From Mayamaea pseudoterrestris (lineage: Eukaryota > Bacillariophyta > Bacillariophyceae > Sellaphorales > Sellaphoraceae), in contig BROI01000013.1 of assembly GCA_027923505.1 (NCBI GenBank), forward strand, positions 858,796 through 922,795: 64,000 bases of DNA, written 5' to 3'. Of the stretch, positions 29,101-64,000 are shown piece after piece. The translations under genes were made by a program, and so were the position numbers. Below the pieces are notes generated by a model that did not search any database, was not told the origin of the DNA, and saw nothing but the letters and a program-made list of their open reading frames with translations. The first letter of the stretch is position 1; every line of letters starts with the position of its first letter.

Positions 29101-32100
29101 GGCCAGGGCATGGGGCGTTTGACAGGGAAGAATCTGCAACTTGTGGTGTTGGCCATACCCACAGTGGAGGCCGTACCCATGTTGTCAGCCTCCAGGCAGT
29201 CCTTTTTGCACCATTTGAGACTCTGCACCTGTCAATGGCATCCCCTGGACATGTTTTGCCTGACTCATTGGGTATTTGGGTGGCCAGGGCATGGGGCGTT
29301 TGACAGGGAAGAATCTGCAACTTGTGGTGTTGGCCATACCCACAGTGGAGGCCGTACCCATGTTGTCAGCCTCCAGGCAGTCCTTTTTGCACCATTTGAG
29401 ACTATGCACCTGTCAATGGCATACCCTGGACATGTTTTGCCTGACTCATTGGGTATTTGGGTGGCCAGGGCATGGGGCGTTTGACAGGGAAGAATCTGCA
29501 ACTTGTGGTGTTGGCCATACCCACAGTGGAGGCCGTACCCATGTTGTCAGCCTCCAGGCAGTCCTTTTTGCACCATTTGAGACTCTGCACCTGTCAATGG
29601 CATCCCCTGGACATGTTTTGCCTGACTCATTGGGTATTTGGGTGGCCAGGGCATGGGGCGTTTGACAGGGAAGAATCTGCAACTTGTGGTGTTGGCCATA
29701 CCCACAGTGGAGGCCGTACCCATGTTGTCAGCCTCCAGGCAGTCCTTTTTGCACCATTTGAGACTATGCACCTGTCAATGGCATCCCCTGGACATGTTTT
29801 GCCTGACTCATTGGGTATTTGGGTGGCCAGGGCATGGGGCGTTTGACAGGGAAGAATCTGCAACTTGTGGTGTTGGCCATACCCACAGTGGAGGCCGTAC
29901 CCATGTTTTCAGCCTCCAGGCAGTCCTTTTTGCACCATTTGAGACTATGCACCTGTCAATGGCATACCCTGGACATGTTTTGCCTGACTCATTGGGTATT
30001 TGGGTGGCCAGGGCATGGGGCGTTTGACAGGGAAGAATCTGCAACTTGTGGTGTTGGCCATACCCACAGTGGAGGCCGTACCCATGGTTTCAGCCTCCAG
30101 GCAGTCCTTTTTGCACCATTTGAGACTCTGCACCTGTCAATGGCATCCCCTGGACATGTTTTGCCTGACTCATTGGGTATTTGGGTGGCCAGGGCATGGG
30201 GCGTTTGACAGGGAAGAATCTGCAACTTGTGGTGTTGGCCATACCCACAGTGGAGGCCGTACCCATGTTGTCAGCCTCCAGGCAGTCCTTTTTGCACCAT
30301 TTGAGACTCTGCACCTGTCAATGGCATACCCTGGACATGTTTTGCCTGACTCATTGGGTATTTGGGTGGCCAGGGCATGGGGCGTTTGACAGGGAAGAAT
30401 CTGCAACTTGTGGTGTTGGCCATACCCACAGTGGAGGCCGTACCCATGTTGTCAGCCTCCAGGCAGTCCTTTTTGCACCATTTGAGACTCTGCACCTGTC
30501 AATGGCATTGTCAGCCTCCAGGCAGTCCTTTTTGCACCATTTGAGACTATGCACCTGTCAATGGCATCCCCTGGACATGTTTTGCCTGACTCATTGGGTA
30601 TTTGGGTGGCCAGGGCATGGGGCGTTTGACAGGGAAGAATCTGCAACTTGTGGTGTTGGCCATACCCACAGTGGAGGCCGTACCCATGTTTTCAGCCTCC
30701 AGGCAGTCCTTTTTGCACCATTTGAGACTATGCACCTGTCAATGGCATACCCTGGACATGTTTTGCCTGACTCATTGGGTATTTGGGTGGCCAGGGCATG
30801 GGGCGTTTGACAGGGAAGAATCTGCAACTTGTGGTGTTGGCCATACCCACAGTGGAGGCCGTACCCATGGTTTCAGCCTCCAGGCAGTCCTTTTTGCACC
30901 ATTTGAGACTCTGCACCTGTCAATGGCATCCCCTGGACATGTTTTGCCTGACTCATTGGGTATTTGGGTGGCCAGGGCATGGGGCGTTTGACAGGGAAGA
31001 ATCTGCAACTTGTGGTGTTGGCCATACCCACAGTGGAGGCCGTACCCATGTTGTCAGCCTCCAGGCAGTCCTTTTTGCACCATTTGAGACTCTGCACCTG
31101 TCAATGGCATACCCTGGACATGTTTTGCCTGACTCATTGGGTATTTGGGTGGCCAGGGCATGGGGCGTTTGACAGGGAAGAATCTGCAACTTGTGGTGTT
31201 GGCCATACCCACAGTGGAGGCCGTACCCATGTTGTCAGCCTCCAGGCAGTCCTTTTTGCACCATTTGAGACTCTGCACCTGTCAATGGCATCCCCTGGAC
31301 ATGTTTTGCCTGACTCATTGGGTATTTGGGTGGCCGGGGCATGGGGCGTTAGGGAAGAATCTGCAACTTGTGGTGTTGGCCATACCCACGGGAGGCGGGT
31401 GGGGGCGCCCAGGGCCTACCCATGTTGTCAGCCTCCAGGCAGTCCTTTTTGCACCATTTGAGACTCTGCACCTGTCAATGGCATACCCTGGACATGTTTT
31501 GCCTGACTCATTGGGTATTTGGGTGGCCAGGGCATGGGGCGTTTGACAGGGAAGAATCTGCAACTTGTGGTGTTGGCCATACCCACAGTGGAGGCCGTAC
31601 CCATGTTGTCAGCCTCCAGGCAGTCCTTTTTGCACCATTTGAGACTCTGCACCTGTCAATGGCATCCCCTGGACATGTTTTGCCTGACTCATTGGGTATT
31701 TGGGTGGCCAGGGCATGGGGCGTTTGACAGGGAAGAATCTGCAACTTGTGGTGTTGGCCATACCCACAGTGGAGGCCGTACCCATGTTTTCAGCCTCCAG
31801 GCAGTCCTTTTTGCACCATTTGAGACTCTGCACCTGTCAATGGCATACCCTGGACATGTTTTGCCTGACTCATTGGGTATTTGGGTGGCCGGCCGTGACG
31901 GGAAATCGCCTGGGGGCGCACTGTGTTTGGCCAACCCACAGTGGAGGCCGTACCCATGTTGTCAGCCTCCAGGCAGTCCTTCAACCCACAGTGGAGGCCG
32001 TACCCATGTTGTCAGCCTCCAGGCAGTCCTTTTTGCACCATTTGAGACTATGCACCTGTCAATGGCATACCCTGGACATGTTTTGCCTGACTCATTGGGT

Positions 32101-35100
32101 ATTTGGGTGGCCAGGGCATGGGGCGTTTGACAGGGAAGAATCTGCAACTTGTGGTGTTGGCCATACCCACAGTGGAGGCCGTACCCATGTTTTCAGCCTC
32201 CAGGCAGTCCTTTTTGCACCATTTGAGACTCTGCACCTGTCAATGGCATACCCTGGACATGTTTTGCCTGACTCATTGGGTATTTGGGTGGCCAGGGCAT
32301 GGGGCGTTTGACAGGGAAGAATCTGCAACTTGTGGTGTTGGCCATACCCACAGTGGAGGCCGTACCCATGTTTTCAGCCTCCAGGCAGTCCTTTTTGCAC
32401 CATTTGAGACTCTGCACCTGTCAATGGCATACCCTGGACATGTTTTGCCTGACTCATTGGGTATTTGGGTGGCCAGGGCATGGGGCGTTTGACAGGGAAG
32501 AATCTGCAACTTGTGGTGTTGGCCATACCCACAGTGGAGGCCGTACCCATGTTGTCAGCCTCCAGGCAGTCCTTTTTGCACCATTTGAGACTCTGCACCT
32601 GTCAATGGCATACCCTGGACATGTTTTGCCTGACTCATTGGGTATTTGGGTGGCCAGGGCATGGGGCGTTTGACAGGGAAGAATCTGCAACTTGTGGTGT
32701 TGGCCATACCCACAGTGGAGGCCGTACCCATGTTGTCAGCCTCCAGGCAGTCCTTTTTGCACCATTTGAGACTATGCACCTGTCAATGGCATACCCTGGA
32801 CATGTTTTGCCTGACTCATTGGGTATTTGGGTGGCCAGGGCATGGGGCGTTTGACAGGGAAGAATCTGCAACTTGTGGTGTTGGCCATACCCACAGTGGA
32901 GGCCGTACCCATGGTGTCAGCCTCCAGGCAGTCCTTTTTGCACCATTTGAGACTCTGCACCTGTCAATGGCATCCCCTGGACATGTTTTGCCTGACTCAT
33001 TGGGTATTTGGGTGGCCAGGGCATGGGGCGTTTGACAGGGAAGAATCTGCAACTTGTGGTGCTGGCCATCCCGCGCCACATCGCGCGGTGGCCCCAGGGT
33101 GCGTACCCATGTTGTCAGCCTCCAGGCAGTCCTTTTTGCACCATTTGAGACTCTGCACCTGTCAATGGCATCCCCTGGACATGTTTTGCCTGACTCATTG
33201 GGTATTTGGGTGGCCAGGGCATGGGGCGTTTGACAGGGAAGAATCTGCAACTTGTGGTGTTGGCCATACCCACAGTGGAGGCCGTACCCATGTTGTCAGC
33301 CTCCAGGCAGTCCTTTTTGCACCATTTGAGACTCTGCACCTGTCAATGGCATACCCTGGACATGTTTTGCCTGACTCATTGGGTATTTGGGTGGCCAGGG
33401 CATGGGGCGTTTGACAGGGAAGAATCTGCAACTTGTGGTGTTGGCCATACCCACAGTGGAGGCCGTACCCATGTTGTCAGCCTCCAGGCAGTCCTTTTTG
33501 CACCATTTGAGACTCTGCACCTGTCAATGGCATACCCTGGACATGTTTTGCCTGACTCATTGGGTATTTGGGTGGCCAGGGCATGGGGCGTTTGACAGGG
33601 AAGAATCTGCAACTTGTGGTGTTGGCCATACCCACAGTGGAGGCCGTACCCATGGTGTCAGCCTCCAGGCAGTCCTTTTTGCACCATTTGAGACTCTGCA
33701 CCTGTCAATGGCATACCCTGGACATGTTTTGCCTGACTCATTGGGTATTTGGGTGGCCAGGGCATGGGGCGTTTGACAGGGAAGAATCTGCAACTTGTGG
33801 TGTTGGCCATACCCACAGTGGAGGCCGTACCCATGGTGTCAGCCTCCAGGCAGTCCTTTTTGCACCATTTGAGACTCTGCACCTGTCAATGGCATCCCCT
33901 GGACATGTTTTGCCTGACTCATTGGGTATTTGGGTGGCCAGGGCATGGGGCGTTTGACAGGGAAGAATCTGCAACTTGTGGTGTTGGCCATACCCACAGT
34001 GGAGGCCGTACCCATGTTGTCAGCCTCCAGGCAGTCCTTTTTGCACCATTTGAGACTCTGCACCTGTCAATGGCATCCCCTGGACATGTTTTGCCTGACT
34101 CATTGGGTATTTGGGTGGCCAGGGCATGGGGCGTTTGACAGGGAAGAATCTGCAACTTGTGGTGTTGGCCATACCCACAGTGGAGGCCGTACCCATGTTG
34201 TCAGCCTCCAGGCAGTCCTTTTTGCACCATTTGAGACTCTGCACCTGTCAATGGCATACCCTGGACATGTTTTGCCTGACTCATTGGGTATTTGGGTGGC
34301 CAGGGCATGGGGCGTATGAGGGGTAAGAATCTGCAACTTGTGGTGTTGGCCATCCCACAGGGGAAGGCCGTCCCATGGTGTCAGCCTCCAGGCAGTCCTT
34401 TTTGCACCATTTGAGACTCTGCACCTGTCAATGGCATACCCTGGACATGTTTTGCCTGACTCATTGGGTATTTGGGTGGCCAGGGCATGGGGCGTTTGAC
34501 AGGGAAGAATCTGCAACTTGTGGTGTTGGCCATACCCACAGTGGAGGCCGTACCCATGTTGTCAGCCTCCAGGCAGTCCTTTTTGCACCATTTGAGACTC
34601 TGCACCTGTCAATGGCATACCCTGGACATGTTTTGCCTGACTCATTGGGTATTTGGGTGGCCAGGGCATGGGGCGTTTGACAGGGAAGAATCTGCAACTT
34701 GTGGTGTTGGCCATACCCACAGTGGAGGCCGTACCCATGGTGTCAGCCTCCAGGCAGTCCTTTTTGCACCATTTGAGACTCTGCACCTGTCAATGGCATA
34801 CCCTGGACATGTTTTGCCTGACTCATTGGGTATTTGGGTGGCCAGGGCATGGGGCGTTTGACAGGGAAGAATCTGCAACTTGTGGTGTTGGCCATACCCA
34901 CAGTGGAGGCCGTACCCATGGTGTCAGCCTCCAGGCAGTCCTTTTTGCACCATTTGAGACTCTGCACCTGTCAATGGCATACCCTGGACATGTTTTGCCT
35001 GACTCATTGGGTATTTGGGTGGCCAGGGCATGGGGCGTTTGACAGGGAAGAATCTGCAACTTGTGGTGTTGGCCATACCCACAGTGGAGGCCGTACCCAT

Positions 35101-35617
35101 GTGGTGTCAGCCTCCAGGCAGTCCTTTTTGCACCATTTGAGACTCTGCACCTGTCAATGGCATCCCCTGGACATGTTTTGCCTGACTCATTGGGTATTTG
35201 GGTGGCCAGGGCATGGGGCGTTTGACAGGGAAGAATCTGCAACTTGTGGTGTTGGCCATACCCACAGTGGAGGCCGTACCCATGGTGTCAGCCTCCAGGC
35301 AGTCCTTTTTGCACCATTTGAGACTCTGCACCTGTCAATGGCATACCCTGGACATGTTTTGCCTGACTCATTGGGTATTTGGGTGGCCAGGGCATGGGGC
35401 GTTTGACAGGGAAGAATCTGCAACTTGTGGTGTTGGCCATACCCACAGTGGAGGCCGTACCCATGGTGTCAGCCTCCAGGCAGTCCTTTTTGCACCATTT
35501 GAGACTCTGCACCCGTCATGCCCCTCTTTTTGCCTGACTCATTGGGTATTTGGGTGGCCAGGGCATGGGGCGTTTGACAGGGAAGAATCTGCAACTTGTG
35601 GTGTTGGCCATACCGAC
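23165..35617. repeat. sat1: 181-bp tandem satellite array, about 69 copies
   Basis: Head-to-tail units repeat every 181 bp over 12.4 kb with very high mutual identity. Recognisable blocks are CTGCAACTTGTGGTGTTGGC, CCACAGTGGAGGCCGTACCC, CAGCCTCCAGGCAGTCC, GCACCTGTCAATGGCAT, GACATGTTTTGCCTGACTC and GTATTTGGGTGGCCAGGGC. A few sites vary between units: GGTGTC/GTTGTC/GTTTTC after ACCCAT, CTATGCACC/CTCTGCACC, and ATACCC/ATCCCC. Because 181 is not a multiple of three, apparent open frames of 62-209 residues recur on both strands; they shift with the period and are not genes. Irregular units occur near 25080, 27410, 30503, 31350, 31890, 33060 and 34310. Confidence 0.97.
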
Positions 35618-36080
35618 AGTAGGGAGAAAAGACGTTTCAAGCCTAAAGCCGGGCTTGAATCCTTGTTAGTACCTCTTGAGACGAAAGTCTGCACCTGTCA
35701 GCGCATCCCCTGGCATGTATATTGTCTACCGTTCGTGTATTTGGTGGCCATCCCGTAGGCGGATGGCTCGTCCGTTTCAAATTGGCAGTATAGTCTTCAC
35801 TGCTGGTGGTGTTTGCACGGCTTCGCTCTGTAGAGTCCGAACATTCGCTGTGTCCGCCGGTTCCGGTTCTGATGTACCTGCGGTAGTCTTTCACGTTGTC
35901 AGTCGTGAATTCTTCGGTACGGTGAAGTGTGTAGGGTTTGGGCCAGTGGCTGACTTTCATCTCGCCTCGTCGTAGGAGTGTGGTCGTGAACGGGATGTTC
36001 CGTGTCTTGGTGCCGCTGGGACCGTGTCGATGTCCTTTTCAATGTTGCTTTGTTCGTCGGCCAAAACGGGGATCCCAGCA
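35618..36080 (-). repeat. 3' LTR of the second Copia element
   Basis: Matches the 5' LTR at 46109-46619 in the same orientation. On the minus strand it starts TGCTGGGATCCCCG, right after a polypurine tract, and ends ...TTTTCTCCCTACT, so the usual terminal CA is not evident. Shared landmarks include the segments around GGCCATCCCGTAGGC, TGGCAGTATAGTCTTCACTG, GTGTAGGGTTTGGGCCAGTG and GTTCGTCGGCCAAAACGGG. It is 463 bp against 511 bp for the partner, with many single-base indels. The last about 140 bp (35618-35757) diverge strongly from the partner and resemble sat1. The end of the RNase H frame reads into this LTR. Confidence 0.85.
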
Positions 36081-36092
36081 CCCTTCCCTTGG
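36081..36092 (-). other. Polypurine tract of the second Copia
   Basis: On the minus strand the bases immediately before the 3' LTR read CCAAGGGAAGGG, a purine-rich primer site for plus-strand synthesis. Its position directly against the LTR start TGCTGG fixes that LTR boundary. Confidence 0.7.
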
Positions 36093-38447
36093 AGAGCGAT
36101 GGCTTCAGGCATTGAATCCATCTTGTAGTACTCATCCTCTCCAACTAGGATCCGTGCATGGCGATTGAAGGTAGAAAGGTCCAAGTTCTTGGTGAAGATG
36201 TCGGCAGTGTTCTTCTTGGTTTCAATGTACTTGACAAGGAGGATGCCGTGTTCTTTGAGCTCTCGAGCGAAGTTGTGGCGTACGTCAACATGGCGTGTGC
36301 GCCCTCCTGTCTTCCAGCTGTTGATGATGTCGATTGCGCCGCTGTTGTCCATTTCCAAGACCATTGGCAGTTGGACTTTGAGGCCTATTGACTGAAGAAT
36401 GGCATGTGTGTGTAGCATGTCTTGTATGACGTCGGTACCTGCGGACATTTCAGACTCAGTTACTGAAAGGGAGACGTGTTTCTGTAGGCGGCAAACTCTC
36501 GCGGACGGAACACCTTCAGGTAGGTGATGCCACCGGAATGACTCTTGTGCTTGTCGGGATCCTTGGCGTAATTTGAGTGCGCTTCTGGCGCTGAGATAAA
36601 GACGTGGTTTGGGCCGGTATACTCGCGGTTTGGGAGGAACAGTCTGCCTCTCTTTGGTGTTGCACACATGTAGCGGATGGCTCGGCACGTCATGGCTTTC
36701 CCTGGGCTTTCTTCCCGTTTTGCTGATCATTTATGGCGTAGAGGTGTCTCTGGTCGAGACCATCGGGCGAGGTAAAGTAGTTTGCCTAGGCCTTGTCGAA
36801 GAGTCTCTGTTTTGTTGCTAGCGGAGCCCTTTGACGCATGGTACCTACAGTGGTGCAGGACCATGCCTCTTGGCGTTCGCCGGGGATGACTCGTCTTGTA
36901 AGCTTTGTAGGAGGACTGGTTGCGTCCATCGCATGTAGTTTTCGCCTCGTTCATCTTGCAACCGATGTATTCGTCCATTGCGCCGTCCCCTCTTCGCCGT
37001 CAAAGTGCTGTAGAAGTCTGTTTCTTTGTCTTCAATCATGTCTCGGGGCCGCTTAACAGGAGATCGTCGATGTGCGAGACGATGTGCATGTGGCGGTCGC
37101 CATCTTGTTTGTAAAACAGGCAAGGGTCGGCAACGCTCCGTTCAAAACCTATTTGTCGAAGTGCTTTGACCAGTTGGTCCCAGAACGCTCGCGCAGCTTG
37201 TTTAGTTCCGTATAGCGTGCGCTTGAGTAGCCAAACGTGATTGGGTGGATAGTCGTCTTGGAAACCTTCAGGTATGTGCATGTAACACTCGTGGCCTTCG
37301 TCAAACGTGTGTGAGGAATGCTCCGCTTATATCGAAGATGTGTGGCTCGTATCCCATCATGATGGCAAGAGTTGTGACAATCTTGATGGACGTTGGCGAT
37401 GCTACTGGAGATGAGATCTTGTTGCTGTCGTAGTGGATTCCGTCTTCTTGTTCGTAGCCTCTTGCTGTGATTCGTGCTTTGTATGTGCCGTTTGACTTCT
37501 TCTTGAGCACCCACTTGCTTGTCATGCACTTTGTTCGAGGTGGTATCATGCTGCGTGAAACGACTTGGAATGTGCCGTGCTTGATGAGGTTGTCCTTCTC
37601 CTTGTGAATTGCCTTGATCCATTCGGGACGCTCTGGACTGCCCATGGCTTGCTTGAATTTGATCGTATGCAACTCTTCTGTGTTGATGAATCCGCCTCCA
37701 ATGCCTGCTCCAACGCACGCAAACTCTCCGAGTGTGGGAATGGGAGACGCGTCGTAGAAGATGCTTGCACTAGACGGCGTGCTGGGCATGTCGCGGAAGA
37801 AGTATTCAAAGGTGGAGTTCGTGGGTTCGTTTGGTGGTTCGCTTGTCTCGTCGAGGTTTAAATGGATTTCTGCAGGGATCAAGTCGGCGCTATGGAAGCT
37901 TTGTTGATCTTCATGGTCGTTTTCTTGTTGGTATGGCGAATCATGAACGGATGTATGTGTGTCGTCGTGAATCGTTGAAGAGGGAACGTGTAGGAGGTCG
38001 GCCATGATGGCAAGTTGTTCTGGCGGTAGATCGATTTGCTGGTTTGTCGACTCGTCGCTTTCGTCTTGTGTCTCGGTGACTAGTATAGATGTTTTATCTT
38101 CATGGTCATCTGGGTTGAAACCCTTCCCGAGTTGAAGAGTCGGGCTGCAAACATTGGAGACTCGAGTCGTGATCACTGTTTCGATAGACGCTTGAGGTGC
38201 GGCTGGTTGAGGTGCGGGACGTCCATTTGCTCGTGTGAGCTCTTCTTCATATTCATCGTCGTCTGCATTAATGTCCCACAGCCCGATTGCTTGACTGTCT
38301 CCTGCACTGCTATGGTCGTCGGCTCTTGGGACTAAGTCGGGTATGGAATCATTTAATGATACGGAGTCGTCGTCGCGCTCGTGTGATGGCTCGTAGGCAG
38401 CTTCGTAACGTTGATCTTGTGTAGGCAAACAGAAACTATCTTCGTTG

Positions 38448-38840
38448 CACCTGTCAATGGCATACGCTGTCACATGCGCTGCTGTACTCGGTATTTCGGG
38501 GTACCAGGGCATGGGGCGTTCGACGAGACTGATTCTGCATCTTGTGGTCGCCATGCCCACAGTGGAGTACCCTGCTTTTCAGCCTCGCAGTACTTTTTGC
38601 ACATTTGGACTCTGCTGATCTGTCACTGGCATACCGTTGGCAGTTTTTTGCCTGACTCATTGGGAATTTGGGTGGCCAGGCATGGCGGCGAATGTTGCAG
38701 GGACTGATCGGTCAACTCGTTGGTGTTCTTGGCCTTTCTCACGTGGTGCGAGGCCACCATATTGTCGTGAGCCTGGCAGATGATCTTGAGCTTTGCGATC
38801 CTCGTGAGTGATTTGAGACTATGCACGTGTCTTTGAATTG
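38448..38840. repeat. Two diverged sat1-like units inside Copia pol
   Basis: Collinear blocks of sat1 appear in order: GCACCTGTCAATGGCATAC, CCAGGGCATGGGGCGTT, CCCACAGTGGAG, then in a second unit TTTTTTGCCTGACTCATTGG, ATTTGGGTGGCCAG, and finally TTTGAGACTATGCAC. Unit starts at 38448, about 38618 and about 38824 give lengths of about 170 and 206 bp. The blocks are separated by unrelated bases. They straddle the break between the integrase frame (ending 38623) and the reverse transcriptase frame (starting 38560). Confidence 0.75.
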
Positions 38841-40674
38841 CGTTTGCTTGGCGATCGGCGATTGTAGTATGCGCTCTTGGAGATTGAGGCGTATTGAGTA
38901 TGTCTGTTCCTTCTTCTTGCGCGCTTGTTGGTGCATTCGCATTTGGGTGGTATATTGTAAGTGCAGTTGGATTGAAGGTGTCGGGCGCTGATTGGATTGA
39001 GTTTGTTGGTGAGGCTTCCGATGCTTCTGGAGTGTCATGGTCAATCAGATCAATCAGCGAGGTAGATCGTGTCAGGATGCGCTTTGTATGGAACGTTGGT
39101 TTCTTCTTGTTCTTGTCGTCTGGAGATTTCGCGGGTGGCGGCGGCAAATTCTCATGGTGATGCGGTGAGAAAAGACTGCTGTAGTTGCTGCTGCAGGAAA
39201 TGACGTCAACGAGTGGTGTAGTGACGATTTCGTGACGCGGGGGCTTAGGTTGAAAGTACGGTCGGTGAAGAAATGTGACGTCCTTGACGTCATGTACGCG
39301 ATTGGTCTCGGGATTGAAGACGCGATAGCATCTGCTCGGGTGATTTTTGCTGTAGCCGACAAAGATGCCTTGGAATCCTTTAGGTGCAAGATGAGACTTT
39401 AATCCGGATATCACGACAGTGACTGCTTCGCCGTATGGATGTAGATTCTTGATGATGGGCGACTCGGTGCCGTAGAAGTGTTTGAATCGAGTTGCTAGAG
39501 TGCCCTTGTGCTCGACGATAGCAAGATTGTCCATGTCGGTTGAGTATTCGAAGGCAGACGGTGCCAAATGAAACCGAATTGAAGGTGGAATGTTTTGGGC
39601 TGTGAATATGGCGCGCGTGCGGTTGGTAAGCGTCGGGAATCCAATCTCGACAAGACTGTTCTGCTGTGGAGTGTCTCTTGCCGTCCATTCAATCTCGATT
39701 GGCAATTTCCAAGCGGAGCTCTTCATTGACTTGGCTAATGCTTGGTTCTCTCCGGCGTTGTCCATTCGAAGGTATTTGACTGTAATGCCGCGTTGGATGA
39801 GATAGTAGAGCATCTGGCATGTCGGCTCGACGATTTCCCCTTTGGTGCGGTACATGGCGCTATGCTTGTAGCCTGTCGCTTCATCGACAATGAGTTGCCA
39901 TTGCGGTTGAATGGAGGAGAATCCAAGTTCTGATTTGCTCTTCATGACTCTGAATGACGAAAGATCCATGTAGAGTCGCTCGCCTGGCTCTGTGGCTCGG
40001 ATGCGCGGCGATATTTGAGGGACCGGTTGCTTCTTGGCTTTTCCTATTGCGCAGGCGACGCACTTGTTCTTGGACGATCCGTGTATTTCCCATCTGAAGT
40101 GTTTGGCAATTGCGAGTGTCATTTGAGGGCTTTGATGTCCACACAGCTCGTGCATTTGTTTATAGGAGAGACGGCGTGTCGGAAGCAAGTTGGCTGCAAT
40201 CATGGCGAACTCGTTGCGAGGCGCTTGAACTAATGGCATTGGAATGACTCGTCTCAAGTACATGCAGTAAAGATGACCTCGCTTGGTAGGAATCAGCAAG
40301 TCGAAGACGATGGAGTGTTGGTTTTCTTTTTCTAGCCAGATCTTCTTGTTGCCGCTGCGGAGGTTCCATCCTGTCGCTAAACGTTGAGTGATGCTGAATA
40401 GATTGAAGGCACAGTCTGCAACGCATACCCGAGAGTGGAGGGCGTCGACCGAAGCTAATTGCCATGGTTTAAGTCGGCGAGCGACTTTTGATTTCCCATT
40501 GTGATGCCTTCATTTCGTATCTGTCGGGCATCGAACAGGCCTTCTGGAGATGTGTGCAGTCGACGGTTGCTGCGTGTCCGGATTTCGGAATGCTTCAGTA
40601 GCCAAGTTGGGGACACGTATGGATCGTGGATAGATTGCGGACGATTGTTGGTGTTGTTTCCCGCGTGGATGGCG

Positions 40675-43600
40675 CTACCGGTGTACCTCAGGATGCATTG
40701 GCTCTGGTAATGATTGTTTGTTGTGTTGGGTTGCGGGGCTGGAATCTGCGCCGCTGCGCTTCGCTGCGTGTCTGCCTCCGCCTTTTGCACGAGGGTCTAG
40801 TAGTTCCTGTCGTTCTGCTTCTCTCTCGCTTTCTGGAAATTGGTCGAGGTAGTTGAAAGTCGTTAAGTCTTTGCTGAATTCCAAGCCGACGTTGCGGAGG
40901 TCTTCTTCTAGTGTGCTGCGCGTTCGCAATGTTCCTTCGAGTGCTCGTCTTTTGACTTCCTTGGCAATTGCATGATCGATGACGACTTTTAAACGTTCGT
41001 CAAACAGTGCTTCCTCGTCTTCTTCATTGATTTCTTCGAACCAGAAGATGAGATCCTTGAGGAAACGCCTTTGGCTGAAACGTTCAAGCATGCACAGTCG
41101 TGCGGCGCTTGCAGGGTTTGTCTCGATGTCTTGCTCATCCTTCTTTATTTGTTGGATGGTGGTTTCGTAGCGCGCTCGAGAAACGACATGCTCAGGCGCT
41201 TGATTGCGGTGTTCCCAGGATTGAAGAAAAGCTTGATAGCCTTCATAGGTGAAGGAGTCTGATCCGTAGCTTTGACTGCTCGGGTACGCATCTGAATCGT
41301 AAGTTGCGTCGTCTGAGTTGGTTTCTTCGTCGCCAGGATTGCTCATGATGATTTCGACTCGCTCTGTATCCCAGACTCGGAGACCAGTGAATTGGTAGTA
41401 GCGGTCTCGCGTTGAGTCGATTGCTTCTTGATGCGTAAAGGCGTGTGGCATGGCTATGTGCTCGAGAAAGAACTCTTGTAGATCGGCAAACATCACTTTT
41501 ATGGCGTCTGACAGCTCGTATAGTGGGGGATTGATGAACAGGACGCTTTGCAAGACGTGGAATGGCGGTAGATCATTCGAGTTGGCTTGTGGCGGAATGT
41601 TGTTTGGAATTCTTGGAGCAAAGGTTGGATACAAGTGCTCGACTTCTTTTAGCTCGTCTGCTGTAAGGAAGTCTTTGGGTAGCCAGTCTCCTCGCCATTG
41701 CGCAAAGCTTGTCGCTACAAGTTCTTCTACACTTTCTTCTTCTTTCAATTCAATTGGAGGACTTGTTGTTGGAGTTGAATCCTTGTCGGCGCTGCAAGTT
41801 GTGACGTTGTCGGTGCGCTCATGTGTGTCGCATTCGTTGGCGTTTGTGGTTGTTGGCTCAAGATTAGTGGCTTCAGTTGTGTCGCTGCTCGTTGTGACGT
41901 TATTGGTGCTTTGCGTAGCGTCGTAGCCATGGTAGGAATCGTTGAGGTTGCTTGCTTGTTCTTCAATTGATGTGTGGACTTGTTGCTCCGATTTACTTGG
42001 CTCGTCTTGTTTGTGAAATGGCAGACCCTTCCCGTCTTCTTGCTTCGTTTGCTCAAGTGTTTCAATGTTTTGAATTAAAGTGCTGAAGTGTCTCCGTTCT
42101 TGCTCGGTTGGAGTCTTGCTGTTGACAAATTCGTCTTCAAAGTCACTTTCTTCTTCATCACTTGTGCTTGGGTCGCCGCATATGGATGCCCAACTGCGTC
42201 CATTGAGATTTGACGATGGAAGATTTGGCTTTGGCTTTGGTGACTCACTCGTTGCGGACGACTTTGTTAAAGACACTAATTCGACGGCTTGCTTCTTGTT
42301 GGTGGAGCTTGACGTTGGTCTTGCACGTTTCGTTCGAGTTGTTGGTGGTGCTGGAGGCTGCTCGATTGATGAATCGTCTTCTGATGAATAGTCTTTAATC
42401 TGATGTGGCTGTAGACCGCGCCAATTGGTTTGTGGATATAAAGGCGACTGTGTTGGAGCTGCAGGAGTGCGAGTAGGGAGTGCTGGATAAGTTTCATCAA
42501 CTAAGTCGGCATGTATGAAGGCAAATTCGCTCCTTGAGTTTGTAGAAGGATACCGGCGGCTTGAAGAGGAACGTTGCGAAGAGGAACGATGCGATCGCTG
42601 AGTCAACTGAAGGGCTTCGTGTACTGCTGCAAGTCCTTGTTCGAGTAGTAATGGCGCTTGACGAGGCACTTGTTCACGCATAATGGTTCGCGGGTGAGGT
42701 TCTTGATGATGGTTTTGATGATCAAGTTGGCGCGGTTGCTCTTGTTGATCTCGGCGACGATAATCATTGTCTCTTGGTTGGTCTCTTGCGCGCTCGTTGT
42801 TGCGATTCTGTCGATAACGACGGTCTTCTTGCTGATCATCTTGTGGAAGACGACGATCTTGCTGTCGATTTGAATTGCGAGGACGCTCTCTTGGTCGTTC
42901 TAAACCACGCTCTTGTTGCTCTCGTGCTTCTTCATCTTCCAATTGACGACGAGCTTCGATTGACAGGCGAGTGTTCCATCCTCGAGGACGACGATGGGCG
43001 TTTTCGACTCGTTCAAAGCAGTCGGCGCTTCGATGATATGGTTGATGGCAAAGGTAGCATTTGAATGATGGTGGATTTCGCGTGTTGTTATAGTTGGTTT
43101 GCGGGCGTTCATTGCGAGTTGGTGGTGCTTGATGTTGACGAGTGTTTTGTTGGCGTGAAGTTTCTTGTTGCGGCGGTTCTGGTTGCGCTGCATATAGAAC
43201 AATCTCGTTGACTCCTTGTATTAAAGCTTCTTCATCTTCTGCTGCGTAAATCGTTTGGTAGATAGTCGACACGACGCCTTCCATTTCGGTCTTGGTCAGG
43301 GCGCGTTGCTTGGTCTTTTGCTCTTGCGCTAGAGCGAGGCAGTATTGAGGCGGCAGCTTGTTCATGAGCGTAGCCATCAGGTCTTCTGCAAGAAGTGTTT
43401 GGTTGAACTTGATGGCTTGCGATTGCATGAGGTCGATGAGGTCTTGAGGATTTGCTGTTGGTCGTTCGAGCTTGAGATTTTGAATGCTTCGTTGGTAAAG
43501 TGTTGGCGCCATGAACTTGTCTGGAGAGAACTTGATTTCCAATGCGTTGATAACTTTCCAAGCTTCGCCTCCTGGGTACTCGGTTGATTCTGCTCCGACA

Positions 43601-43923
43601 AGATGGTCGTTCAACTCAGGGAATGGCGACAGTGCGATGGAGAGCATTTGCATGAGCGTTTCGTTTTGCTTGCGTTCCGCTTGTTTGTTTCGAATGATTT
43701 GGATTTCGTCTGCTGTTGAGTTAGCTGTAGGATCAGTAATGACTTCATTTTGAGTAGCTGGTAAATGCTCGGGTCGACTGCCTCTTATAGGACGGCGACA
43801 GCCTGCAATTCTTGCATGATTCTTGAACTGGTTGAACCATGATGGAAAGGCTTCGATGGTGTTGGTTATCTTTGGCGTTTTGTAGAGCGCATTCATAGTG
43901 ATATCTTCTTGTTGGTCGGTCAT
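40675..43923 (-). CDS. Very long Copia gag (1082 aa) with zinc knuckle
   Basis: Begins MTDQQEDITMNALYKTPK. The first about 260 residues form a Ty1/Copia gag domain (SWFNQFKNHARIAGC, EAWKVINALEIKFSPDKF, MATLMNKLPPQYCLAL). A CCHC zinc knuckle follows near residue 300 with C-x2-C-x4-H-x4-C spacing (CYLCHQPYHRSADC), the nucleic-acid-binding motif of nucleocapsid. Instead of ending there, the frame continues for about 760 residues: an Arg/Gln/Asp-rich segment, Ser/Thr/Pro-rich segments, a Glu/Thr-rich acidic region, and a more ordered C-terminal part (ERFSQRRFLKDLIFWFEEI). Such a long extension is unusual for Copia. The stop lies in the same frame as downstream pol, with a further in-frame stop near 40520. 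Intact. Confidence 0.8.
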   Translation of the reverse strand: MTDQQEDITMNALYKTPKITNTIEAFPSWFNQFKNHARIAGCRRPIRGSRPEHLPATQNEVITDPTANSTADEIQIIRNKQAERKQNETLMQMLSIALSPFPELNDHLVGAESTEYPGGEAWKVINALEIKFSPDKFMAPTLYQRSIQNLKLERPTANPQDLIDLMQSQAIKFNQTLLAEDLMATLMNKLPPQYCLALAQEQKTKQRALTKTEMEGVVSTIYQTIYAAEDEEALIQGVNEIVLYAAQPEPPQQETSRQQNTRQHQAPPTRNERPQTNYNNTRNPPSFKCYLCHQPYHRSADCFERVENAHRRPRGWNTRLSIEARRQLEDEEAREQQERGLERPRERPRNSNRQQDRRLPQDDQQEDRRYRQNRNNERARDQPRDNDYRRRDQQEQPRQLDHQNHHQEPHPRTIMREQVPRQAPLLLEQGLAAVHEALQLTQRSHRSSSQRSSSSRRYPSTNSRSEFAFIHADLVDETYPALPTRTPAAPTQSPLYPQTNWRGLQPHQIKDYSSEDDSSIEQPPAPPTTRTKRARPTSSSTNKKQAVELVSLTKSSATSESPKPKPNLPSSNLNGRSWASICGDPSTSDEEESDFEDEFVNSKTPTEQERRHFSTLIQNIETLEQTKQEDGKGLPFHKQDEPSKSEQQVHTSIEEQASNLNDSYHGYDATQSTNNVTTSSDTTEATNLEPTTTNANECDTHERTDNVTTCSADKDSTPTTSPPIELKEEESVEELVATSFAQWRGDWLPKDFLTADELKEVEHLYPTFAPRIPNNIPPQANSNDLPPFHVLQSVLFINPPLYELSDAIKVMFADLQEFFLEHIAMPHAFTHQEAIDSTRDRYYQFTGLRVWDTERVEIIMSNPGDEETNSDDATYDSDAYPSSQSYGSDSFTYEGYQAFLQSWEHRNQAPEHVVSRARYETTIQQIKKDEQDIETNPASAARLCMLERFSQRRFLKDLIFWFEEINEEDEEALFDERLKVVIDHAIAKEVKRRALEGTLRTRSTLEEDLRNVGLEFSKDLTTFNYLDQFPESEREAERQELLDPRAKGGGRHAAKRSGADSSPATQHNKQSLPEPMHPEVHR

Positions 43924-43931
43924 GATTGCGA

Positions 43932-45938
43932 TTAGAATGAGTAGTAAAAGTTTTGGCTATTGGTCGGACGTTGATAGCTAATGTTGGTGTCGGCGGATGG
44001 AAATTGACGGTTTGGGGTAGCTAAACGTTGCTGACGTGGCCAATTGAGTTGCTGATGTGACGGAGTTTGAAAACGTGAACGAGCGTGGAACTGCTGAGCG
44101 TGTTGATCGCGACGATGGACACGTTGTTGATTTGTCACTTGTCGATTTCGTTGAGCTTGTAAGTGCAGCTGTCGTTGTTGTTGATTAAGAAGATGATTTA
44201 AACGAGTTACTTGAGCTTGAAGACTGTTTATATCGCGTGTATGATGAGTTGTAGTGTTGCGCGTGTCGTTGATGCGAGGTTGGACTCGAAGGATTGGATT
44301 GGAGGTTCGGTTTTGCTGTCGGGTTGGCGTGACAATTCGATTCGCTTGTTGCTGTCTTAAACGCTGCTGGTAAGGACGATTGCTGTTCGTTTCGTTGCGA
44401 CGTTGATTGCGTCTTTGACTAACAGTGATTCGATTGCGTTGAAGATTGATCGAAGCTTGTTGCGTTGTTGATGCGCGCTCTTGACTTGCTTGTCGCTGTC
44501 TGTTTCGTTGTTGAAGAAGTGCTTGACGACGGTCTGCAACGCTTTGAACTGCTGCGATGCGAGATGCTTCTTGGTAAGTGCTTGAAACGTTCTGAGAGCG
44601 AAGAGTTTGTTGCGATGGTCTCGTGTCTTGGCGATGCGCTTGTCTAACTGGCGCTTGATTTGCTTCTTGTTGGCGAATTGAATTGATTGATCGGCAAGTA
44701 TGCGTCGTGCTTGTTGGCGATGTCTCTAATTGCTCGTTGACTGGCGATGAGTTGCTGCTTGGCGAGGGTACGTGTGTTTGCGTATTGGCGATGCACACAG
44801 AACAAGCGCACGTCGTCTCTGTGTTTATATCTGGTACTTCAGAAAGTCTTTGCAAGTCTTGACGTCTGTTTTCTTCGTCCTTTTGAAGCAGGAAACGAGT
44901 CTTCTTGAGGAAGTAAAGAGTTACTGGATGCGATAGGTCTTTTGCTTCGAATTCGTCTCGCTCGTTGCGCAAAGTGTCTTCTAGTAGAAGAATCTCCTTC
45001 TCTTCGGGCGTGAAAGGATTGTTCGGTCGGCAAAGATCAAGGCTCTTGTAAAAGTCTGCTCGCTTTTCGTCAAGGAAGATTAATGACTTTGGAGAAAAGA
45101 TGAAGGCTTTGAGAAAGGGTACGTTGCTGTCGATGTAACTTGTTTCGACGCCTGATTGTGCGGTTGACTCGGCAACTTTTGCTAATCCTTCTTCTTTGAA
45201 TTCTTCCGCAATGTGACTGTAAAACACTTCGTTGTTGGCAAGGTCTTTAAACTGATTGAAGCGCTGCTCACAAGCTTGTTCCGGGTCGATTGGCTTTGAT
45301 GAAGGCGGCGGTAGAATGCCTCGAAAGATCCAGGCGAAACGCTTGTCTTCTTCGTCCCAAGTCCAAGGGGTTGGAGGAGAGACGCGCGGGTCGTAACGAT
45401 ACCAGCCGTATCGAACGTTCGGGTGGTTGTAGACTGCTTTCTCTTCGTCAGTGGCGGGTCGTCCAGTTAGATGCCAGTCTTCGGGGTTGTTTGGTGAAAG
45501 ACGACGAAGGCTGTCGCGCGGGTTGGACTCGGTTGAAATGCGCTCTCGTTCTTGATTGCTTGCAATTTGATCGGCGGCGGTAAGTCGGATTACTGGGCGG
45601 CCTTCTGGAGCGACCGATTGGAGACTTGAAGGGTTGAACTCGTGTAAAGTAATGTTGATGAAGAGGACGACGACTTGTAGAAGGCGTCGTGAAGAATTAA
45701 AGACTTGGCGGCTTGTGCTGAAGCGGCGAAGGAAACTGTAAAGAAGGCGCGTGACTTGTGGAGTGAGAGGCGACTTGGAAAGAAGAGTGCTCGGCAGACT
45801 AGGTAAAGTAGTTCTGCTCAACTGATGGAGACTTGAAATCTGCTCGACGACGTTGGCCTTGATCAAACGCTTGATCCGACTCGAGGTAAACTGAAAGATA
45901 AAGGCAAAAGGGTCGCTTGTAGGCTTGCTCTTGCTCAC
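43932..45938 (-). CDS. Extra upstream ORF of the second Copia (668 aa, function unknown)
   Basis: Lies between the 5' LTR and gag on the element strand; its stop is eight bases before the gag start. I do not recognise a family. Residues 1-120 are basic and partly hydrophobic. About 125-370 look folded, with a Trp/Tyr-rich patch (WHLTGRPATDEEK, YGWYRYDPRVSPPTPWTWDE, FAWIFRGILPPP) and charged helices. About 370-400 include CACSVC. The rest is Arg/Gln/Asn-rich low complexity with a predicted coiled stretch (INSLQAQVTRLNHLLNQQQR) and an Asn/Tyr-rich end, suggesting RNA binding or assembly. The tight spacing suggests a bicistronic genomic RNA with reinitiation or internal initiation at gag. Intact. 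Confidence 0.75.
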   Translation of the reverse strand: MSKSKPTSDPFAFIFQFTSSRIKRLIKANVVEQISSLHQLSRTTLPSLPSTLLSKSPLTPQVTRLLYSFLRRFSTSRQVFNSSRRLLQVVVLFINITLHEFNPSSLQSVAPEGRPVIRLTAADQIASNQERERISTESNPRDSLRRLSPNNPEDWHLTGRPATDEEKAVYNHPNVRYGWYRYDPRVSPPTPWTWDEEDKRFAWIFRGILPPPSSKPIDPEQACEQRFNQFKDLANNEVFYSHIAEEFKEEGLAKVAESTAQSGVETSYIDSNVPFLKAFIFSPKSLIFLDEKRADFYKSLDLCRPNNPFTPEEKEILLLEDTLRNERDEFEAKDLSHPVTLYFLKKTRFLLQKDEENRRQDLQRLSEVPDINTETTCACSVCIANTQTHVPSPSSNSSPVNEQLETSPTSTTHTCRSINSIRQQEANQAPVRQAHRQDTRPSQQTLRSQNVSSTYQEASRIAAVQSVADRRQALLQQRNRQRQASQERASTTQQASINLQRNRITVSQRRNQRRNETNSNRPYQQRLRQQQANRIVTPTRQQNRTSNPILRVQPRINDTRNTTTHHTRDINSLQAQVTRLNHLLNQQQRQLHLQAQRNRQVTNQQRVHRRDQHAQQFHARSRFQTPSHQQLNWPRQQRLATPNRQFPSADTNISYQRPTNSQNFYYSF

Positions 45939-46108
45939 TCAATACTCCGCTTGTTGCTGCAGAGCGTTGGAAATTCGAGGTTGACAGAAAGGGCTTGAAG
46001 AAATCCGCGTCCGGTTTTGTTCAATGCTTTGGAAACTTGGTAAAAAGATCTTGGTTCAATCGGCAAGTAATTACTTTGCTTGAGATCCAAGATGAAGGTC
46101 CGTACGGA
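45939..46108 (-). other. 5' leader of the second Copia
   Basis: About 170 bp lie between the 5' LTR end and the first ORF. A tRNA primer-binding site should be next to the LTR, but none was recognised with confidence. A TCCGTACGGA palindrome lies at the boundary (46099-46108). Confidence 0.4.
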
Positions 46109-46619
46109 AGTAGGGAGAAAAGACGGTTTAAACGCTAAAAGACTGGGGAAACTTTGAATCTATTGTTAGTAGATCCTCTAGAATGAGACGAAAGTGAAGC
46201 GGTCGATTTCGCATCCAAGAGTGGCTTCTCATTCATACGTATGTATATTGTCTACCGGTCGTGTCATTTTGTACTGGCCATCCCGTAGGCGGGATGGCTC
46301 TCGTCCGTCTACAGAACTGGCAGTATAGTCTTCACTGCTGGTAGTGTTTGCACGGCTTCGCTCTGTAGAGGCCCAACATTCGCTGTGTACGCCGGTTCCG
46401 GTATTCGATGTACCTGTGGTAGTCTTTCTACGGTTGTCAGTCGTGAATTCTTCGGGTACGGTGAAGTGTGTAGGGTTTGGGCCAGTGGCTGACTTTCTAC
46501 TCTCGCCGTCGTAGGAGTGTGGTCGTGAACGGGATGTTCCGTGTCTTGGTGCCGCTGAGACCGTGTCGATGTCCTTTTCAATGTTGCTTTGTTCGTCGGC
46601 CAAAACGGGGATCCCAGCA
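46109..46619 (-). repeat. 5' LTR of the second Copia element
   Basis: 511-bp copy matching 35618-36080 in the same orientation. On the minus strand it begins TGCTGGGATCCCCG at 46619, directly abutting sat2 on the plus-strand side. It contains more single-base insertions relative to the 3' copy (for example GGCGGGATGGCTCTCGTCC against GGCGGATGGCTCGTCC). Such small indels dominate the LTR difference. Confidence 0.85.
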
Positions 46620-49600
46620 AAGCCCTGTAGGTGCCCAAAATACACCAGAATGGTGCCAACATCATTATTCAGGCTGCGCTACAAGATGGTAGGCTTGGCT
46701 GGTGTCTCAGGGGATGGCAATGTATTTGGTGACAACTTGTCACCAGTCTCAGCCCGCAGATGCCTGGACATTCAAACACCCCTACAGCAAGCCCTGTAGG
46801 TGCCCGAAATACACCAGAATGGTGCCAACATCATTATTCAGGCTGCGCTACAAGATGGTAGGCTTGGCTGGTGTCTCAAGGGATGGCAATGTATTTGGTG
46901 ACAACTTGTCACCAGTCTCAGCCCGCAGATGCCGTGACATTCAAACGCCCCTACAGCAAGCCCTGTAGGTGCCCAAAATACACCAGAATGGTGCCAACAT
47001 CATTATTCAGGCTGCGCTACAAGATGGTAGGCTTGGCTGGTGTCTCTGGGGATGGCAATGTATTTGGTGACAACTTGTCACCAGTCTCAGCCCGCAGATG
47101 CCGGGACATTCAAATGCCCCTACAGCAAGCCCTGTAGGTGCCCAAATTACACCAGAATGGTGCCAACATCATTATTCAGGCTGAACTACAAGATGGTAGG
47201 CTTGGCTGGTGTCACAGGGGATGGCAATGTATTTGGTGACAACTTGTCACCAGTCTCAGCCCGCAGATGCCGGGACATTCAAACGCCCCTACAGCAAGCC
47301 CTGTAGGTGCCTGAAATACACCAGAATGGTGCCAACATCATTATTCAAGCTGCGCTACAAGATGGTAGGCTTGGCTGGTGTCTCAGGGGATGGCAATGTA
47401 TTTGGTGACAACTTGTCACCAGTCTCAGCCCGCAGATGCCGTGACATTCAAACGCCCCTACAGCAAGCCCTGTAGGTGCTCAAAATACACCAGAATGCTG
47501 CCAACATCATTATTTAAGCTGAGCTACAAGATGGTAGGCTTGCTGGTGTCTCAGGGGATGGCAATGTATTTGGTGACAACTTGTCACCAGTCTCAGCCCG
47601 CAGATGCCATGACATTCAAACGCCCCTACAGCAAGCCCTGTAGGTGCCCAAAATACACCAGAATGGTGCCAACATCATTATTCAGGCTGCGCTACAAGAT
47701 GGTAGGCTTGGTTGGTGTCTCAGGGGATGGCAATGTATTTGGTGACAACTTGTCACCAGTCTCAGCCTGCAGATGCCAGGACATTCAAACGCCCCTACAG
47801 CAAGCCCTGTAGGTGCCCAAAATACACCAGAACGGTGCCAACATCATTATTCAGGCTGCGCTACAAGATGGTAGGCTTGGCTGGTGTCTCAGGGGATGGC
47901 AATGTATTTGGTGACAACTTGTCACCAGTCTCAGCCCGCAGAAGCCGGGACATTCAAACGCCCCTACAGCAAGCCCTGTAGGTGCCCAAAATACACCAGA
48001 ATGGTGCCAACATCATTATTCAGGCTGAGCTACAAGATGGTAGGCTTGGCTGGTGTCTCAGGGGATAGCAATGTATTTGGTGACAACTTGTCACCAGTCT
48101 CAGCCCGCAGATGCCGGGACATTCAAACGCCCCTACAGCAAGCCCTGTAGGTGCCCAAAATACACCAGAATGGTGCCAACATCATTATTCAGGCTGCGCT
48201 ACAAGATGGTAGGCTTGGCTGGTGTCTCAGGGGATGGCAATGTATTTGGTGACAACTTGTCACCAGTCTCAGCCCGCAGATGCCTGGACATTCAAACACC
48301 CCTACAGCAAGCCCTGTAGGTGCCCGAAATACACCAGAATGGTGCCAACATCATTATTCAGGCTGCGCTACAAGATGGTAGGCTTGGCTGGTGTCTCAAG
48401 GGATGGCAATGTATTTGGTGACAACTTGTCACCAGTCTCAGCCCGCAGATGCCGTGACATTCAAACGCCCCTACAGCAAGCCCTGTAGGTGCCCAAAATA
48501 CACCAGAATGGTGCCAACATCATTATTCAGGCTGCGCTACAAGATGGTAGGCTTGGCTGGTGTCTCAGGGGATGGCAATGTATTTGGTGACAACTTGTCA
48601 CCAGTCTCAGCCCGCAGATGCCGTGACATTCAAATGCCCCTACAGCAAGCCCTGTAGGTGCCCAAAATACACCAGAATGGTGCCAACATCATTATTCAGG
48701 CTGAACTACAAGATGGTAGGCTTGGCTGGTGTCTCAGGGGATGGCAATGTATTTGGTGACAACTTGTCACCAGTCTCAGCCCGCAGATGCCGGGACATTC
48801 AAACGCCCCTACAGCAAGCCCTGTAGGTGCCCAAATTCACCAGAATGGTGCCAACATCATTATTCAGGCTGAACTACAACATGGTAGGCTTGGCTGGTGT
48901 CTCAGGGGATGGCAATGTATCTGGTGACAACTTGTCACCAGTCTCAGCCCACAGATGCCGTGACATTCAAACGCCCCTACAGCAAGCCCTGTAGGTGCCC
49001 AAAATACACCAGAATGGTGCCAACATCATTATTCAGGCTGCGCTACAAGATGGTAGGCTTGGCTGGTGTCTCAGGGGATGGCAATGTATTTGGTGACAAC
49101 TTGTCACCAGTCTCAGCCCGCAGATGCCGGGACATTCAAACGCCCCTACAGCAAGCCCTGTAGGTGCCCAAAATACACCAGAATGGTGCCAACATCATTA
49201 TTCAGGCTGCGCTACAAGATGGTAGGCTTGGCTGGTGTCTCAGGGGATGGCAATGTATTTGGTGACAACTTGTCACCAGTCTCAGCCCGCAGAAGCCGGG
49301 ACATTCAAACGCCCCTACAGCAAGCCCTGTAGGTGCCCAAAATACACCAGAATGGTGCCAACATCATTATTCAGACTGCGCTACAAGATGGTAGGCTTGG
49401 CTGGTGTCTCAGGGGATGGCAATGTATTTGGTGACAACTTGTCACCAGTCTCAGCCCGCAGATGCCGGGACATTCAAACGCCCCTACAGCAAGCCCTGTA
49501 GGTGCCCACAATACACCAGAATGGTGCCAACATCATAATTCAGGCTGCGCTACTAGATGGTAGGCTTGGCTGGTGTCTCTGGGGATGGCAATGTATTTGG

Positions 49601-52600
49601 TGACTATTTGTCACCAGTCTCAGCCCACAGATGCCGTGACATTCAAACGCCCCTACAGCAAGCCCTGTAGGTGCCCAAAATACACCAGAATGGTGCCAAC
49701 ATCATTATGCAGGCTGCGCTACAAGATGGTAGGCTTGGCTGGTGTCTCAGGGGATGGCAATGTATTTGGTGACAACTTGTCACCAGTCTCAGCCCGCAGA
49801 TGCCGTGACATTCAAACGCCCCTACAGCAAGCCCTGTAGGTGCCCAAAATTCACCAGAATGGTGCCAACATCATTGTTCAGGCTGCGCTACAACATGGTA
49901 GGCTTGGCTGGTGTCTCAGGGGATGGCAATGTATTTGGTGACAACTTGTCACCAGTCTCAGCCCGCAGATGCTGAGACATTCAAACGCCCCTACAGCAAG
50001 CCCTGTAGGTGCCCAAAATACACCAGAATGGTGCCAACATCATTATTCAGGCTGAACTACAAGATGGTAGGCTTGGCTGGTGTCTCAGGGGATGGCAATG
50101 TATTTGGTGACAACTTGTCGCCAGTCTCAGCCCGCAGATGCCGTGACATTCAAACGCCCCTACAGCAAGCCCTGTAGGTGCCCAAAATACACCAGAATGG
50201 TGCCAACATCATTATTCAGGCTGCGCTACAAGATGGTAGGCTTGGCTGGTGTCTCTGGGGATGGCAATGTATTTGGTGACAACTTGTCACCAGTCTCAGC
50301 CCGCAGATGCCGTGACATTCAAACGCCCCTACAGCAAGCCCTGTAGGTGCCCAAAATACACCAGAATGGTGCCAACATCATTATTCAGGCTGCGCTACAA
50401 GATGGTAGGCTTGGCTGGTGTCTCAGGGGATGGCAATGTATTTGGTGACAACTTGTCACCAGTCTCAGCCCGCAGATGCCGGGACATTCAAACGCCCCTA
50501 CAGCAAGCCCTGTAGGTGCCCAAAATACACCAGAATGGTGCCCAAATCATTATCAAGCTGCGCTACAAGATGGTAGGCTTGGCTGGTGTCTGAGGGGATG
50601 GCCATGTATTTGGTGACAACTTGTCACCGGTCTCAGCCCGCAGATGCCGGGACATTCAAACGCCCCTACAGCAAGCCCTGTAGGTGCCCAAAATACACCA
50701 GAATGGTGCCAACATCATTATACAGGCTGCGCTACAAGATGGTAGGCTTGGCTGGTGTCTCAGGGGATGGCAATGTATTTGGTGACAACTTGTCACCAGT
50801 CTCAGCCCGCAGATGCTGGGACATTCAAACGCCACTACAGCAAGCCCTGTAGGTGCCCAAAATACACCAGAATGGTGCCAACATCATTATTCAGGCTGCG
50901 CTACAAGATGGTAGGCTTGGCTGGTGTCTCAGGGGATGGCAATGAATTTGGTGACAACTTGTCACCAGTCTCAGCCCGCAGATGCCGGGACATTCAAACG
51001 CCCCTACAGCAAGCCCTGTAGGTGCCTGAAATACACCAGAATGGTGCCAACATCATTATTCAAGCTGCGCTACAAGATGGTAGGCTTGGCTGGTGTCTCA
51101 GGGGATGGCAATGTATTTGGTGACAACTTGTCACCAGTCTCAGCCCGCAGATGCCGGGACATTCAAACGCCCCTACAGCAAGCCCTGTAGGTGCCCAAAA
51201 TACACCAGAATGGTGCCAACATCATTATTCAGGCTGCGCTACAAGATGGTAGGCTTGGCTGGTGTCTCAGGGGATAACAATGTATTTGGTGACAACTTGT
51301 CACCAGTCTCAGCCCGCAGATGCTGTGACATTCAAACGCCCCTACAGCAAGCCCTGTAGGTGCCCAAAATACACCAGAATGGTGCCAACATCATTATTCA
51401 GGCTGCGCTACAAGATGGTAGGCTTGGCTGGTGTCTCAGGGGATGGCAATGTATTTGGTGACAACTTGTCACCAGTCTCAGCCCCCAGATGCCGGGACAT
51501 TCAAACGCCCCTACAGCAAGCCCTGTAGGTGCCCAAAATACACCAGAATGGTGCCAACATCAATATTTAAGCTGCGCTACATATGGTAGGCTTGGCTGGT
51601 GTCTCAGGGGATGGCAATGTATTTGGTGACAACTTGTCACCAGTCTCAGCCCGCAGATGCCGTGACATTCAAACGCCCCTACAGCAAGCCCTGTAGGTGC
51701 CCAAAATACACCAGAATGGTGCCAACATCATTATTCAGGCTGAGCTACAAGATGGTAGGCTTGGCTGGTGTTTCTAGGGATGGCAATGTATTTGGTGACA
51801 ACTTGTCACCAGTCTCAGCCCGCAGATGTTGTGACATTCAAACACCCCTACAGCAAGCCCTGTAGGTGCCCAAAATACACCAGAATGGTGCCAACATCAT
51901 TATTCAGGCTGAACTACAAGATGGTAGGCTTGGCTGGTGTCTCTGGAGATGGCAATGTATTTGGTGGCAACTTGTCACCAGTCTCAGCCCGCAGATGCCG
52001 GGACATTCAAACGCCCCTACAGCAAGCCCTGTAGGTGCCCAAAAACACCAGAATAGTGCCAACATCATTATTTAAGCTGAGCTTCAAGATGGTAGGCTTG
52101 GCTGGTGTCTCAGGGGATGGCAATGTATTTGGTGACAACTTGTCACCAGTCTCAGCCCGCAGATGCCGTGACATTCAAACGCCCCTACAGCAAGCCCTGT
52201 AGGTGCCCAAAATACACCAGAATGGTGCCAACATCATAATTCAGGCTGAGCTACAAGATGGTAGGCTTGGCCGGTGTCTCTGGGGATGGCAATGTATTTG
52301 GTGACAACTTGTCACCAGTCTCAGCCCGCAGATGCTGGGACATTCAAATGCCCCTACAGCAAGCCCTGTAGGTGCCCAAAATTCACCAGAATGGTGCCAA
52401 CATCATTATTCAGGCTGCGCTACAAGATGGTAGGCTTGGCTGGTGTCTCAGGGGATGGCAATGTATTTGGTGACAACTTGTCACCAGTCTTAGCCCGCAG
52501 ATGGCGTGACATTCAAACGCCCCTACAGCAAGCCCTGTAGGTGACCAAAGTACACCAGAATAATGCCAACATCATTATTCAAGCTACGCTACAAGATGGT

Positions 52601-63871: not shown

Positions 63872-64000
63872 GGCTGTAATGCTGAATCAGCTTTTGCTAA
63901 TTGCAAGAACGACTTGGCCAAAATTTTCTTTACTTTATGCAATCTGCTACCGATAGTCTCAATATAGTCTCAATCTACTAAACGACGCTCGGATCCTTCT
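63872..64000. other. Upstream flank of the VASt gene
   Basis: 129 bp to the window edge; presumably promoter or leader of the minus-strand gene. Nothing specific was seen. Confidence 0.3.

Follow-up and report, generated by a model that had tools for sequence, protein, structure and literature searches.

How a Copia retrotransposon comes to lie exactly between two unrelated satellite arrays, and whether it truly does so in the genome, is the question that this locus raises. The window, the whole stretch of 64,000 nucleotides analysed here, forms the terminal 64 kb of contig C13, which belongs to an assembly of 30.6 Mb and 41 contigs; the contig end coincides with the window end (position 64000), and no telomere-like repeat was seen by eye in the 1.5 kb before it. 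The genome gave 53 matches to Chloroa_b-bind; the nearest Protein Data Bank entries of one light-harvesting protein are fucoxanthin chlorophyll a/c proteins, and those of another are headed by an entry named LHCI-11, with a protein of diatom type lower in the ranking, which is consistent with a diatom. An earlier note on this DNA had reported different satellites on the two sides and no target-site duplication, and had offered three origins for the arrangement: insertion at a pre-existing junction followed by loss, recombination between two Copia copies, or misassembly through a repetitive Copia.

Layout of the locus and the missing duplication

The two flanks are indeed different satellites by TRF. 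On the left, an array with a 181-bp unit (sat1) occupies positions 23165 to 35617 of the plus strand (TRF rows 23165 to 35620, together with the sequence), degraded from about 35500, and on the right an array with a 169-bp unit (sat2) occupies positions 46620 to 52832, also on the plus strand (TRF 46615-52832, together with the sequence). The element between them is on the minus strand, and its 3' LTR therefore faces sat1 and its 5' LTR faces sat2. Its internal region (36081 to 46076), with reading frames that are broken by indels relative to the clean copy on contig C32, encodes a Copia-type reverse transcriptase (RVT_2, E 2e-14, in the protein of 37304-38578 minus) and, upstream of it on the same strand, a retroviral SH3-like domain (SH3_retrovirus, E 3.2e-11); an integrase core found no match in the five proteins scanned. 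The right, 5' LTR (46077 to 46619, minus strand) is complete and clean, with 543 bp, intact TG...CA ends (TGCTT...CAGCA) and one mismatch to the LTRs of the C32 copies. It ends at 46619 and sat2 begins at 46620, the first base beyond it, just as the earlier note had stated.

Outside the element and its two flanking arrays, a third tandem array with a 183-bp unit (52832-53854) directly follows sat2, and its unit (one unit tested) had no match among 20 compared loci. Left of sat1, after a 100/196-bp tandem repeat, lies a 1932-aa open reading frame (17114-22912) that had no Pfam match at E 0.001.

Ty1/copia LTR retrotransposons leave a short target-site duplication of about 5 bp on insertion. Such duplications of 5 bp flank each of the three family members whose outer ends are both clean, namely CAACT (a tandem pair on C32, counted as one element), GACGC (C3:1250k) and TTGCC (C22). 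In the window, the five bases in the expected place beyond the 5' LTR are AAGCC (46620 to 46624), a sequence with 0 occurrences in sat1 from 23165 to 35500, and a genome search that allowed up to one mismatch found AAGCC joined to the LTR start nowhere. The degraded left end makes the missing duplication unreadable from that side as sequenced; that no target duplication joins the flanks, as previously claimed, follows instead from the absence of AAGCC in sat1, and the flanks therefore do not derive from one simple insertion. The missing duplication concerns the locus, not the assignment of the element to its family.

Satellite letters within the left part of the element

At the left junction the picture differs from the one first drawn, in which sat1 ran up to the 3' LTR: the LTR is incomplete and the junction is not clean. 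Aligned with the clean 543-bp LTR, the left LTR (35618 to 36080, minus strand) is recognisable from 35618 onwards, some 30 bp short of the true LTR end, its outer bases being unrecognisable, and many small deletions relative to the right LTR reach to about 35970. Degradation affects the whole interval between about 35500 and 35970, with sat1 letters mixed among LTR letters over some 350 bp of the LTR. The first 149-150 bp of this LTR score 46.5 against sat1 in the phase of the array, whereas the true LTR scores 21 and shuffled sat1 22.6 ± 4.5; because other rotations of sat1 score equally or higher (up to 55.5), this alignment shows sat1 content and no exact phase.

Small indels extend into the body of the element. 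Relative to the clean C32 copy, 232 of the 234 indel columns between 35715 and 44100 fall within four patches, P1 to P4 (13 columns in the aligned part of P1, then 60, 59 and 100), and the other two lie near 37.31 kb. The reading frame of 2809 codons that is single and open in the C32 copy has breaks here within P2, P3 and P4 and a further one near 37.30 kb, outside the patches and beside the two stray columns. We compared the bases in each patch that do not match clean Copia with sat1, taking 200 dinucleotide-shuffled sat1 sequences as the null. The clearest case is P3 (38420 to 38850), where the Copia body is blended with about two sat1 monomers: 365 of its 431 bases equal clean Copia, and 63 of the remaining 66 equal sat1 (null 44.6 ± 4.3, maximum 55), with a sat1 score of 400 against a null of 118.4 ± 8.6. 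The alignment of this patch to Copia covers its full length, that to sat1 positions 26-422 of the 431, and in a comparison of donors sat1 read in the same direction as the adjacent array reached z 31, with minus-strand sat2 as runner-up at z 3.8. P4 (40410 to 40800) behaves similarly, with 38 of 43 non-Copia bases equal to sat1 (null 25.9 ± 3.5, maximum 35) and z 6.9 for sat1 in the cluster test described below. For P1, the blended LTR itself (35618 to 35970), the count of 20 of 25 stands against a null of 13.9 ± 2.7 whose best shuffle also reached 20, and the sat1 score of 164 lies above every shuffle (84.8 ± 7.2, maximum 109); z was 9.9 in the donor comparison and 3.1 for the part covered in the cluster test.

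P2 (36480 to 37050) is a cluster of small indels in which 20 of 29 non-Copia bases equal sat1 (null 15.8 ± 3.0). Its sat1 score exceeds the shuffles (z 3.8), but so does the almost equal score of the clean copy (156 vs 168), and for this reason we do not count the score of P2 as evidence of a blend; a donor sought among sat1, sat2 and a third satellite, sat3, gave no clear candidate. Five clean control segments gave z values of -0.9 to 1.8 for plus-strand sat1, and two further clean segments were likewise without sat1 excess. A derivation of sat1 from Copia, under which the blend would be homology, was rejected, as the best sat1 match to clean Copia has an E value of 8.4.

The letters of two unrelated repeats are thus interleaved, in the order of both templates, clearly in P3 and P4 and by score in P1. 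From P1 through P3 to P4 the sat1 phase drifts within the patches. A consensus built from mixed reads gives this kind of sequence, in which two unrelated templates alternate every few bases across 400 bp, and we know of no biological process that produces such a letter-by-letter blend. In clean-copy coordinates the indel clusters begin at 1142, 3138 and 5140, about 2000 apart, a spacing not seen in the lists for other copies; one polisher has a default window of 500 bp, and the cluster starts are suggestive of such windows in this copy only.

Other Copia copies and satellite boundaries in the genome

A genome search with the left LTR found at least 17 places, and we fetched flanks for those outside the window and larger pieces for most copies. 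That sat1 and sat2 are neighbours is in itself nothing special, since they adjoin without any Copia, 3-29 bp apart, at C13:606 kb, C16:86 kb and C18:27 kb. At C13:548-564 kb the topology of the window recurs, with sat1, a blended left LTR, Copia and sat2, the right LTR being missing. The Copia there differs from that of the window by 158 substitutions in 4832 shared clean sites (3.27%), which rules out that the two elements are one duplicated locus. At C23:424-431 kb sat1 lies on both sides of Copia in opposite orientations. Not every copy that adjoins a satellite is odd, because a copy on C22 with clean ends and a proper duplication has sat2-like sequence beside each of its LTRs (64 bp at 81% next to one of them).

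Indel clusters in the other copies, taken from alignments of 1000 bp or more and comprising 10 or more indel columns, were compared with both strands of sat1 and of sat2 (60 shuffles per comparison). Counting repeats once, a satellite blend at z of at least 4 was found in 2 of 14 distinct clusters, and 12 were negative. The cluster at C3:502k matches sat1 (z 4.0), and 540 bp of sat1 then follow the element; that on C22 matches minus-strand sat2 (z 5.0), and sat2 adjoins the element. From these pairings, the donor, where a blend is found, is the neighbouring satellite. Most indel patches in the other copies have another cause or no known cause.

Several further arrangements were encountered among these loci. 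The stretches fetched from C13:548-643 kb carry, in order, sat2(-), Copia(-), sat1(-) and then sat1(+) and sat2(+), the sat1 array switching strand near 577 kb in what resembles a large inverted arrangement, real or assembled. The LTR-sat1 junctions at C13:563.8 kb, at C23:431 kb and at 35.6 kb of the window lie near one place in the sat1 monomer, around GTGTTGGCC, although the exact bases are uncertain, two of the junctions being blended and the third having a deletion within the LTR. At C32:18580-41065, two Copia copies stand head to tail with 0 bp between their LTRs and a single CAACT duplication flanking the pair; the two agree at all 9243 aligned bases, another alignment of 1559, which overlaps in part, has 1 mismatch, and the pair represents either the integration of a dimer or a duplication in the assembly. 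The 60 bases beyond the right LTR are identical at C2:1867 kb and C22:4.2 kb, the clean Copia sites of which differ by 1.48% (18/1219), a likeness that reflects either a duplicated region or shared reads.

A probable assembly error and its rivals

Of the three origins proposed for this locus, misassembly through a repetitive Copia is the best supported, the left LTR and two internal patches being blends of Copia and sat1. Judging from the letters of the assembly, we put at roughly three in four the probability that the locus is a Copia sitting in sat2 that was wrongly joined to sat1 and given a blended consensus, an assembly error and no biological event. In this reading the right half is real, a Copia inserted in a sat2 array, as the clean LTR end observed at sat2 shows, and the left junction would be an artefact of noisy long-read assembly in which a sat1 array was joined to Copia. 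Reads of sat1 may have stacked on the left 5 kb of the element, which would account for the letters of both repeats seen in the consensus. The true left neighbour would probably be more sat2, ending in AAGCC and missing from the assembly, and the false join would fall at some point in the interval from about 35.5 to 40.9 kb. The abundance of sat1 (858 exact 19-mers) and the start of contig C4 within it both count, in our view, for misassembly. This reading is further favoured because both other loci where the Copia family touches sat1 are also odd, the one at C13:563k in its blended left LTR and absent right LTR, and the one on C23 in having sat1 on both sides in opposite orientations.

Several results weaken the case for misassembly. 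The arrangement of sat1, Copia with its LTR and sat2 recurs at C13:548-564 kb, as a recurrent real structure would, and this, the strongest argument that the structure is real, must be set against the damaged junction there. The base count of P1 is matched by the best shuffle, and P2 has no clear sat1 blend; one frame break, near 37.30 kb, lies outside the patches; only 2 of the 14 patches in other copies are blend-like; and on C22 a copy that adjoins sat2 shows clean LTR ends together with a proper duplication. Moreover, a bad consensus does not in itself prove a false join, and a true join with a ruined consensus remains the alternative on present sequence.

One real event that could have made such a join is ectopic recombination between a Copia in sat1 and a Copia in sat2, fusing the arrays through a chimeric element, with the patches as the result of poor polishing. 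It predicts flanks from two insertions with no common duplication, and Copia copies adjoin sat1 and adjoin sat2 elsewhere. This option, raised in the earlier note, also gains from C13:548-564 kb, where sat1 adjoins the LTR side of a different Copia copy and sat2 its opposite side; it is weakened by the internal blends, since recombination alone leaves sat1 letters 2.8 and 4.8 kb from the junction unexplained, and its reciprocal product, AAGCC at a left LTR, was not found in the genome. We consider it unlikely. More doubtful still is the idea that this Copia family prefers one position in the sat1 monomer and repeatedly fuses sat1 to sat2, the loci at C13:548-564 kb and C13:894-905 kb being real, independent and poorly polished junctions. 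Insertion at an existing sat1/sat2 boundary with later loss of the duplication has the Copia-free boundaries on C13, C16 and C18 in its favour, but it demands an exact hit on the boundary, loss of the left duplication and loss of the outer 30 bp or so of the LTR, it leads one to expect AAGCC at the end of a sat1 flank whose array has none, and it too leaves the internal blends unexplained; we disfavour it as very improbable. Ordinary decay, in which the left part would be old and eroded by small deletions, accords with the plentiful small deletions in the patches, but with merely two of 234 indel columns outside them, and with the non-Copia bases of P3 tracking sat1 in order at 63 of 66, it is scarcely credible.

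If the locus is misassembled, a tempting case of Copia-mediated satellite fusion is removed. The comparison also offers a simple check that needs sequence only, namely to align an element to a clean sister copy and ask whether its foreign bases track the neighbouring satellite. Where retrotransposons lie near satellites in assemblies of this kind, a frame break may stem from consensus error, and without reads it should not be counted as decay.

Our search of titles and abstract beginnings in the literature on such chimeric junctions found no description of this case. The element itself resembles the diatom Ty1/copia elements of the CoDi groups, as the portion of PMC8147415 on which we draw presents them, in its Copia reverse transcriptase, SH3-like domain, TG...CA LTR ends (complete on the right in the window copy) and, at clean copies, 5-bp duplications; unlike them, the window copy has a damaged 3' LTR and unpaired flanks. 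For the junction, the part of PMC7545148 used here offers precedents both for polishing by reads that come from another copy of a repeat and for a mosaic consensus with frameshifts. The likeness lies in a consensus that corresponds to no real molecule, in broken frames and in reads assigned to the wrong repeat. The cases treated in that part concern alleles or copies of one repeat, whereas in the window two unrelated neighbouring repeats are blended.
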